40,974 bases of DNA from an uncultured Pelagibacteraceae bacterium (GTDB taxonomy: Bacteria > Pseudomonadota > Alphaproteobacteria > Pelagibacterales > Pelagibacteraceae): contig CACDDC010000008.1 in the NCBI GenBank assembly GCA_902551455.1, positions 1 to 40,974 on the forward strand, written 5' to 3'. The notes under the pieces were generated by a model. The model saw nothing but the letters and a program-made list of their open reading frames with translations, was not told the origin of the DNA and made no database searches. The position numbers and the translations under genes were made by a program. Positions 11,625 through 14,631 of this stretch are shown here, piece after piece (position 1 is the stretch's first letter; the number at the start of each line of letters is the position of its first letter).

Positions 11625-13370
11625 ATGCTAAATTCAGAAGATTTAATAAACAAGGTAAAATCATATAACAAGTTTCTAAATCCCGAAACTTTATCAAAAG
11701 CCTATAACTTTGCTTTAAAAGCCCATGAGAAACAAAAAAGAGATGAGGGTTCACCTTACATAATTCATCCTGTGGCTGTTGCAAATATTTTAACAGAATT
11801 AAAACTTGATAGTGCTACTATAGCTACTGGGTTATTACATGACACAATAGAAGATACTCAAGCTACATATCAAAATATTAAAGAACAATTTGGCAAAGAA
11901 GTAGCTGATCTTGTTGATGGAGTTACTAAAATTTCTGAGTTTGAAAATCAAGCTATTTCAAATTCTAAAGCTGAAAATTTTAGAAAATTAATTTTAGCAA
12001 CTTCTAAAGATATAAGAGTTTTACTTGTGAAACTAGCAGACAGACTGCACAATATGAGGACTATCAAATTTAAGATAGATAAAGATAAACAGATTCATAA
12101 GGCAAAAGAAACTATGGAAATTTACGCTCCTTTAGCTGATAGAATGGGAATGAATAGAATAAGAGATGAATTAGAAGATCTTTCATTTGAGGTATTAAAT
12201 CCAGAAGCAAGAAAATTAATAAAAGACAGATTAGATAAAATCAAACATAATAATTTAACTAATTTTAATAATGTTTCTGATGAGCTTCATGATTTGCTTA
12301 ACGTAAACAAAATTAATTCGAAAATATATAGTCGAGAAAAAACTCCTTTTTCTATATGGCGAAAAATACAATCAAAAAGAACTTCACTTGAACAAATTAC
12401 GGATATTATTGGTTTTAGAATTATTTTAGATGATATACCGCATTGTTATAAAGCATTAGGTGTATTTCATAACAAATGGAATTGTATACCGGGTAAATTT
12501 AAAGATTACATCTCTTCACCAAAAATAAATAATTATCAATCTTTACATACAGCAGTTATTGGTCCTAATAAACGTCCAATCGAAATTCAATTAAGAACAA
12601 TGACCATGCATGAATTTGCACAAAGAGGTATTGCATCTCATTGGAAATACAAATCTTCTGAAAAATTTAATTCTTTAACATGGAAAGAATATGATTGGCT
12701 TGCAGATTTAGTTGAAATTATTAACAAGAACCAAAATCCAGAACATTATTATGAATATACAAAACTCCAAATGTTCCAAGAAAATGTGTTTTGCTTTACT
12801 CCAAATGGATCGGTAATTAAATTACCAAAATCTGCATCACCAATAGATTTTGCATATGCAGTACATACTCAAATAGGTGATACAGCAGTAAGCTGTGAAA
12901 TTAACGGAAAAGAGTCACCATTACAAACAACTTTATTTAATGGTGATGTTGTAAAAATTATTACATCAAAAAAAGTATCTCCATCATTGCATTGGTTATC
13001 ATCAACAAAAACTGGTAAAGCTAGAGCAGCAATAAGAAGATATTGGCAATATAGAGAAGCTAATGAACCTAAACTAAGAAAGCAGTACAACACTACATTA
13101 TGGTTATCATTACCTGATCAACCTGGAAGATTAGGCGACGTGACAACAATGATTGGATCAAACCAAGTTAATATATCAAGTGTAGAAATGGTAGAAAAAA
13201 CCACTAATACAATCAATTTTCGATTTAATCTTATCATTGGTGATTTGAAAAACTTTACAAATCTAATTAGTGAGCTAAAACAAAAAGAATATAAGTTCAA
13301 AATAATTAGACATAAAAATAAAAAATATGCTTTCATTAAAAGACTCTTTAGCGGTTTTAAGAAAAACTAA
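11625..13370 (+). CDS. relA/spoT: Bifunctional (p)ppGpp synthetase/hydrolase, RelA/SpoT family (shortened)
   Basis: The 581-aa protein makes and hydrolyses the stringent-response alarmone (p)ppGpp. The hydrolase HD domain has EGSPYIIHP (His48), LLHDTIEDT (His72-Asp73, Glu76-Asp77) and KLADRLHNMRT, so hydrolysis is likely retained. The synthetase domain (about 225-345) has the QITDIIGFRII and YQSLHTAVIGP motifs and PIEIQLRT..MHEFAQRGIASHWKYK. A TGS domain follows (about 385-445, VFCFTPNGSVIKLPKSASPIDFAYAVHT). A C-terminal ACT domain starts near residue 495 (LPDQPGRLGDVTTMI). The Cys-containing zinc-finger/RIS region and most of the helical region normally between TGS and ACT are missing, which explains 581 rather than about 700-750 residues. 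Confidence 0.93.
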   Translation: MLNSEDLINKVKSYNKFLNPETLSKAYNFALKAHEKQKRDEGSPYIIHPVAVANILTELKLDSATIATGLLHDTIEDTQATYQNIKEQFGKEVADLVDGVTKISEFENQAISNSKAENFRKLILATSKDIRVLLVKLADRLHNMRTIKFKIDKDKQIHKAKETMEIYAPLADRMGMNRIRDELEDLSFEVLNPEARKLIKDRLDKIKHNNLTNFNNVSDELHDLLNVNKINSKIYSREKTPFSIWRKIQSKRTSLEQITDIIGFRIILDDIPHCYKALGVFHNKWNCIPGKFKDYISSPKINNYQSLHTAVIGPNKRPIEIQLRTMTMHEFAQRGIASHWKYKSSEKFNSLTWKEYDWLADLVEIINKNQNPEHYYEYTKLQMFQENVFCFTPNGSVIKLPKSASPIDFAYAVHTQIGDTAVSCEINGKESPLQTTLFNGDVVKIITSKKVSPSLHWLSSTKTGKARAAIRRYWQYREANEPKLRKQYNTTLWLSLPDQPGRLGDVTTMIGSNQVNISSVEMVEKTTNTINFRFNLIIGDLKNFTNLISELKQKEYKFKIIRHKNKKYAFIKRLFSGFKKN

Positions 13371-13915
13371 TGCTCTTTTAGATGGGCATTTTGTACTTTC
13401 ATCAGGTTTACATTCGTCAAAATATATTCAATGTGCAAAATTATTAAGCTATCCCCATTTATCTAATAAAATATGTATTTCATTAAGTAAAAAAAATTAA
13501 AAAAAATTTTAAAAAAATTGATTTAATATTATCACCTGCTATGGGTGGTATAGTAATTGGTTATGAAATAGGAAAACTTTTAAAAAAAGAAACTATTTTT
13601 TGTGAGAGAGTAAATAATAAATTTAATTTAAGGCGTGGATTTAATATTAAAAAAAAATCAAATGTTTTAATAGTTGAAGATGTAATAACAACTGGTAAAT
13701 CAAGTTTAGAATGTCTAAAATTAATTAAAAAAGCCAAAGCAAAAAATGTTGGTTTTGCATGTATAATTGACAGATCGAACAAAAAGACACTTAAAATAAA
13801 AAATAAAAAAATTGTTTCTCAAATTAAAATAGATGTACCAAGTTATAATAAAAAAAAAATACCTTCATTTTTAAAAAAAATTCCAGTCAGAAGTCCTGGG
13901 AGCAGACGTTTATAA
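13327..13915 (+). pseudogene. pyrE: Orotate phosphoribosyltransferase PyrE, interrupted by a +1 frameshift in an A8 run
   Basis: PyrE attaches ribose-5-phosphate to orotate in UMP synthesis. The first 57 codons (13327-13500) read the family N terminus, including LLDGHFVLSSGLHSSKYIQCAKLL, then stop at TAA right after a run of eight A (13489-13496). The rest lies one frame over up to 13915: LILSPAMGGIVIGYEIG, then the PRPP-binding loop NVLIVEDVITTGKSS and a normal C terminus. Dropping one A from the run joins the halves into about 195 aa, the usual length, with no conserved part missing. It overlaps relA/spoT by 44 bp and pdxJ by 1 bp. It may be a pseudogene, a homopolymer sequencing error, or a gene rescued by slippage on poly-A. 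The intact motifs favour error or slippage over old decay. Confidence 0.85.
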
Positions 13916-14631
13916 TGATAAGACTTGGTGTCAATATTGATCACATTGCAACAATCAGAAATGCTAGAGGTGAAAATCATCCAGACCTTATATTGTCAGC
14001 AAAAAATATAAAAAATTATGGAGCAGATTTAATTACTGTACATTTAAGAGAAGACCGACGTCACATTAAAGATCGAGACTTAATAAAATTATCTAAATTA
14101 AAACGAATTCCAATAAACCTCGAAATAGCAGCAAATAATAAAATGTTAAAAATAGCACTTAAATTTAAACCTAAATTTGTTTGTTTAGTGCCTGAAAAAA
14201 GAAAAGAAATTACTACAGAAGGTGGATTAAATTTATCAAAAAATAAAAATATTATCCAAAAAATAGTTAGCAAACTTAATAGCAAAAATATTAGAACAAG
14301 TTTATTTATTAATCCAAATATAAATGACATAAAAATCGCCAGTTATATAAATACAAAATGCATTGAATTACATACTGGAAAAATATCCAGACTAATAAAA
14401 AAAAATAAAAACTATAATAACGAGTTAATTAAAATTAAAAAATGTGCAAAGTACGCATCATCTATTGGTTTAGAAGTTCACGCTGGTCATGGAATGGACA
14501 TCAAAACAGCTAAAATATTAACTAAAATTAAGGAAATTAGTGAATTTAATATAGGACACTTTATTATTGGTGAATCCATCTTTTTTGGATTAAAAAAAAT
14601 TATTAGTAAATTTAAAAAAATTTGTAAATAA
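13915..14631 (+). CDS. pdxJ: Pyridoxine 5'-phosphate synthase PdxJ
   Basis: The 238-aa cytosolic TIM-barrel enzyme condenses 1-deoxyxylulose 5-phosphate with 3-amino-1-hydroxyacetone phosphate to form pyridoxine phosphate (vitamin B6). It opens with the family signature LGVNIDHIATIRNARG, followed by DLITVHLREDRRHI, CLVPEKRKEITTEGG and VHAGHGMD, and ends with FNIGHFIIGESIFFGL. Length is normal. The start overlaps the pyrE stop by one base, and acpS begins 1 bp after its stop, as in the common alphaproteobacterial pdxJ-acpS-lepB-rnc string. Its product PLP is the cofactor of GlyA and the MetY-type enzymes in this window. Confidence 0.96.
   Translation: MIRLGVNIDHIATIRNARGENHPDLILSAKNIKNYGADLITVHLREDRRHIKDRDLIKLSKLKRIPINLEIAANNKMLKIALKFKPKFVCLVPEKRKEITTEGGLNLSKNKNIIQKIVSKLNSKNIRTSLFINPNINDIKIASYINTKCIELHTGKISRLIKKNKNYNNELIKIKKCAKYASSIGLEVHAGHGMDIKTAKILTKIKEISEFNIGHFIIGESIFFGLKKIISKFKKICK

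Follow-up and report, generated by a model that had tools for sequence, protein, structure and literature searches.

The orotate phosphoribosyltransferase gene, pyrE, of an uncultured Pelagibacteraceae bacterium is broken by a change of reading frame at a run of eight A's, and the extra A is probably a homopolymer indel introduced by DNA amplification, sequencing or assembly, the pyrE of the cell itself being ordinary. The frame break is real in the deposited sequence, which is a stretch of 40,974 nucleotides (the window); that its cause is technical we infer. The window is one contig of a draft genome of 983,926 bases in 38 contigs that is 79% complete, and the nearest records are Pelagibacteraceae (SAR11), mostly single-cell or metagenome drafts.

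The frame break in pyrE

The pyrE gene spans positions 13327-13915 of the forward strand and switches frame at the A8 tract at 13489-13496. Its first reading frame (13327-13500, 57 aa, forward strand) begins at ATG 13327, is read through the tract as AAA AAA AAT and ends with TAA at 13498-13500, directly after the run of A's as had been claimed in the original prediction. This N-terminal part matches positions 4-51 of TIGR01367 (E 1.9e-13), the NCBIfam model of orotate phosphoribosyltransferase, which has 187 positions and a curated cut-off of 150.25. The second reading frame (13490-13915, 141 aa, forward strand) encodes the C-terminal part and matches positions 50-187 (E 9e-41), its family match undecayed. 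With 50.5 bits for the N-terminal half and 139.5 bits for the C-terminal half, either half alone scores below the cut-off. Since together they cover the model nearly end to end, the gene is one base away from a whole pyrE; the match is complete and lies in two frames that change at 13489-13496 instead of in a single one. The claim that both halves carry intact family motifs holds, and so does the claim that there is one A too many; in the related locus L020 the same local sequence has A7 and pyrE is in frame. Frameshift-aware alignment against two reference proteins likewise scored the tract as a +1 event. It had been proposed that the length of the run be compared in relatives and that A7 at this position would make the break a simple sequence error, and A7 is what L020 has.

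Neither the two frames nor the frameshift-aware alignment revealed a further stop or shift in either half. Identity to 80 relatives is 70-81% for the N-terminal half and 70-82% for the C-terminal half, with no sign of decay, and the downstream half, without a stop, is as undecayed as had been described. The original prediction would have called the gene a true pseudogene if it carried further mutations and if a second intact pyrE lay elsewhere. We found neither the one in the two halves nor the other among the five PF00156 matches of this genome, which is 79% complete. One of these matches is pyrE itself, one is apt (adenine phosphoribosyltransferase) by family search, and one is like a purine phosphoribosyltransferase but reaches no NCBIfam cut-off even with its best matches; the two remaining ones we take, from their sequence and length, to be PRPP synthetase and PurF.

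Both neighbors of pyrE on the same strand are intact. Upstream is a relA/spoT family gene (11625-13370; TIGR00691, 596 bits) that overlaps the start of pyrE by 44 bases (13327-13370), and downstream is pdxJ (13915-14631; NF003627, 305 bits), the ATG of which shares one base, 13915, with the pyrE stop. By inference from this arrangement, the early stop in pyrE could additionally uncouple the translation of pdxJ.

pyrE in related genomes

The same neighborhood was found at 80 loci of relatives, with relA at 80, pyrE at 80 and pdxJ at 78 of them. At all 80 (the genome_contigs set) the two halves of pyrE share one frame without a stop, and when 29 loci from further genomes are added, the two sets overlapping in part, both halves are in the same frame at all 109 other loci where both could be placed. 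The only shifted copies in this test were the window's own two, L004 and L086; the loci L001, L002, L003 and L005 are not pyrE. When 61 genomes were searched, some match to pyrE was obtained in 55 and none in six. Every one of the 50 relatives with a strong match has an open frame of 194-215 codons. The rest of the 55 are the genome under study, G013 with fragments at contig ends, and G049, G055 and G057 with weak matches to other phosphoribosyltransferases. The pyrE shift is therefore private, being common to none of the 109 other loci in a sample that holds no genome of the same species.

Other homopolymer frameshifts in the same genome

The window and a further 400 kb of its genome (441 kb in all) were scanned by frameshift-aware alignment against the proteins of two related genomes, G012 (800 kb) and G034 (397 kb). 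The scan took in 303 genes, with some 94,000 codons aligned, and yielded six robust homopolymer events, namely, pyrE (A8), rpsA (A8), ihfB (A9), pyrF (A8), a FadB-like gene (T6) and agmatinase (G7). A seventh, in trpF (A7), was found by a targeted alignment whose identity of 36% (70/194) is below the limit of the scan. Genes were named by searching the intact proteins of the relatives against NCBIfam, except for pyrF (PF00215) and pyrE (TIGR01367). Six of the seven events are +1, and the one in rpsA is either +2 or -1. Those in the FadB-like gene (C9:8253) and agmatinase (C9:10927), both at locus L163 and both +1, are each backed by two reference genomes. Left out of the seven were an event at C2:16489, which had a robust score and lies near a start but is not at a homopolymer, and five weak or terminal ones at C1:5398 (A8), C1:7071 (A10), C2:1503, C2:16457 and C3:3559. 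An earlier, cruder scan, which used half of the later G012 reference, had given two junctions in 100 matched genes; it found few, since for many genes there was no reference protein and it overlooked short shifts near the C terminus, and the frameshift-aware alignment took its place.

Errors at homopolymers should affect genes that have nothing in common, whatever the base of the tract; the shifts found here do lie in unrelated genes, at A, T and G tracts. In a census of tracts, one of six G tracts of at least six bases was affected compared to five of 1925 such A tracts (Fisher p 0.019), trpF being counted in the latter numerator though its region fell below the limit of the census. A tracts of A9 or longer occur at about 0.6 per gene in this sample. 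The genes rpsA, ihfB, pyrF and trpF are consecutive and have one homopolymer shift each, all four within 1.43 kb at a site outside the window (L116:1200-2500 / G000:C1:35,900-37,400). When seven events were placed uniformly in 441 kb, four came to lie so close together in none of 200,000 simulations, and a dip in quality explains such a cluster better than biology does. The clustering, the +1 bias in drafts, the short T and G tracts, the privacy of the shifts, and the fact that rpsA and ihfB are broken along with pyrE and pyrF all point to a technical source. Amplification, sequencing or assembly of the draft would then have added one base in the A8 tract, and the added A would make an ordinary intact pyrE appear split.

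How often such breaks occur

Five genes at the 80 relative loci were examined by the same criteria, and in 103,911 codons there were five homopolymer events, all +1. They are in relA (A6 and T7) and pdxJ (A10, A6 and A8) and none is in pyrE. The loci L016, L063, L066 and L077 carry these private shifts, two of them in L063, and in each pyrE is intact. At these rates, which amount to a break in about 1-1.5% of pyrE copies, 1.0-1.6 shifted pyrE would be expected in 110 copies and one was seen. The broken pyrE is therefore an ordinary draw from the general class of private homopolymer indels. It counts against a technical cause that the rate in the genome under study does not differ significantly from that in G034 (7 vs 2, p 0.19; 7 vs 1, p 0.077). 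The case of pyrE serves as a caution for AT-rich drafts in that an essential gene broken at a homopolymer should be judged against the genome's own break rate, which here is by itself enough to expect about one broken copy of pyrE in 110.

Shifts of this kind were also found in G012, which is closed in a single contig of 1,343,202 bases. Over 112,837 codons it shows six events at homopolymers, of which four are -1 and two +1; the tracts are in tmk (A9), waaA (A10), mraY (A9), prmC (A12), folP (A13) and a gene without a name that encodes 360 residues (A10). These shifts are located at L168, in the L182-side block and at L187-L207. Robust events away from homopolymers made up three of nine in G012 and one of three in G034. 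At the sites in folP, tmk and waaA, 60 other genomes each were inspected and no gene was split into two matches there, the exception being folP of G006, where a further N-terminal match overlaps the first and one TAG lies in frame. Judged by the matches, these three shifts appear private to G012. One in-frame stop each was observed inside the otherwise long matches of G006 folP, G039 folP and G023 tmk. Error is the simplest reading for G012 too, and its pattern of core-gene shifts of both signs at A9-A13 could be real biology.

A possible recent loss of the enzyme

If the strain or cell truly has A8, orotate phosphoribosyltransferase may have been lost, so recently that decay has not set in, and such indels would arise often where a lineage lacks MutS. 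The MutS model TIGR01070 had no match in any of 21 SAR11 genomes, of which 11 have a completeness of 90% or more, against 11 positives among 14 controls; the lineage may therefore often acquire true homopolymer indels. Long A tracts are common, and the undecayed state of pyrE fits a recent event. Also, the next gene of the pathway, pyrF, loses its frame close to its end, again at an A8. However, we consider a real mutation unlikely because rpsA, ihfB and trpF would be broken in the same cell too, which is hard to square with viability. Moreover, pyrD is intact, pyrF is without a stop in all 36 other genomes with a match (one of them partial), and no second copy of pyrE turned up among the PF00156 matches of this incomplete genome to make up for the loss. 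A loss of UMP synthesis along the whole pathway, which the shifts in both pyrE and pyrF bring to mind, was set aside since pyrD is intact and since the neighbors of pyrF, namely, rpsA, ihfB and trpF, are shifted as well.

Possible rescue by transcriptional slippage

The original prediction offered a pseudogene, a sequencing error and a gene rescued by slippage of RNA polymerase, and it leaned towards the last. The facts on which it built were correct, and the interpretation holds in part, since at least six other homopolymer shifts move the weight towards error. Slippage rescue requires that A8 be real and that full-length PyrE be made from a share of the transcripts, those in which the tract has seven (or ten) A's. 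It would suit a gene of the essential type with an undecayed downstream half and a stop directly after the tract. Slippage on A8 has been discussed for IS elements of Deinococcus and Nostoc, and a run of eight A's is described as yielding about a tenth of the human apoB product (PMC1088944). Rescue at poly(A) is known in endosymbionts of aphids and ants (PMC5009743, PMC3017870). Slippage is established for nine A's in Thermus dnaX (PMC1088944) and for eleven A's, at about 20%, in Citrobacter tssM (PMC4256274). Baranov et al. give nine as the usual threshold and see a sign of suppressed slippage where an AT-rich genome abounds in long runs; since eight A's can suffice in some organisms according to the same source, the length of the tract alone is not exclusionary (PMC1088944). 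The reported Citrobacter case adds A's, whereas pyrE of the window needs one to be lost or two to be added (PMC4256274).

If slippage carried a cost, A8 should be avoided in coding sequence, and in SAR11 it is not. Compared to the expectation from shuffling synonymous codons, A8 runs number 409 vs 326 (1.25x) in the genome under study, 580 vs 505 (1.15x) in G012 and 362 vs 314 (1.15x) in G034, the three SAR11 genomes to which the test was applied, without a positive control organism. Runs of at least nine A's are depleted in G012 (332 vs 369 +/- 12 expected), and so are runs of at least nine T's in the genome under study (20 vs 27.8 +/- 3.2) and in G012 (33 vs 54.7 +/- 5.3). In all three genomes A12-A13 runs fall short of the expectation, and it is possible that there is some cost at longer runs. 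Since A8 is not avoided, slippage rescue is poorly supported. A tract of usually at least nine A's or T's and a shift that is kept across relatives would be expected of such a gene, and pyrE has A8 and a shift common to none of the 109 loci. Its downstream half is constrained, as expected of a rescued gene, and this is equally expected under a sequence error. Furthermore, the T6, A7 and G7 shifts of the same genome cannot be accounted for by slippage rescue. These other single-base shifts, in T6, G7 and A tracts and with four of them in 1.4 kb, favor sequence error over slippage rescue, which we regard as highly doubtful for pyrE.

A search of the literature for SAR11 together with transcriptional slippage found no paper, and SAR11 was absent among the matches listed for frameshift, poly-A and slippage combined. 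It is a long shot, by analogy with the endosymbionts, that free-living SAR11 without MutS have numerous frameshifts at homopolymers within their essential genes and tolerate them because slippage restores a share of the messages. The cases may then be pyrE, pyrF and ihfB in the genome under study and tmk, mraY, folP, waaA and prmC (A9-A13) in the closed genome of G012. If this were true, slippage rescue at poly(A) would extend from endosymbionts to free-living ocean bacteria that are among the most abundant cells of the ocean.

Possible frameshifting by the ribosome or a split enzyme

At A_AAA_AAG-type sites the usual ribosomal frameshift is -1. Heptamers of this type are named in PMC3711429. 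A programmed shift of +1 (or -2) would join both frames of pyrE if it took place on AAA AAA A, upstream of the TAA; in its favor, the slippery stretch is rich in A and a stop codon comes immediately after it. We judge it very improbable since the direction needed is +1 and not the usual -1, and since the arrangement is found at none of the 109 relative loci, so that there is no conservation of a frameshift signal. That pyrE is instead split into two polypeptides that assemble, the second from the in-frame ATG at 13541 with an ORF of 124 aa, is scarcely credible because this ATG lies inside the segment of the LSPAMGG region that is kept in all relatives shown, a start there loses residues covered by TIGR01367, and no relative has a split pyrE.

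Comparison with known systems

The pyrE of the window resembles the TIGR01367-type PyrE of Pelagibacterales in that both halves match the model in order and in that relA/spoT and pdxJ are its neighbors. It differs in that all relatives tested are in one frame and the window copy is broken at one A8 tract. With the poly(A) frameshifts of Buchnera and Blochmannia that are rescued by slippage it has in common an AT-rich reduced genome, a homopolymer indel and an undecayed downstream part. However, those known cases are described as having long poly(A) (9 or more bp; a tract of 11), and some of them are conserved between species (PMC5009743, PMC3017870), whereas pyrE of the window has A8, is private, and occurs in a genome that also has shifts at T6, A7 and G7. 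A survey that covered 206,991 frameshifted genes took singletons validated by BLASTp to be expected sequencing errors (PMC3711429). No feature that we tested sets pyrE of the window apart from the singleton homopolymer frameshifts of draft assemblies, and it shares with them that the shifts are private and of a single base, that they affect core genes which are otherwise intact, and that they are clustered along contigs.
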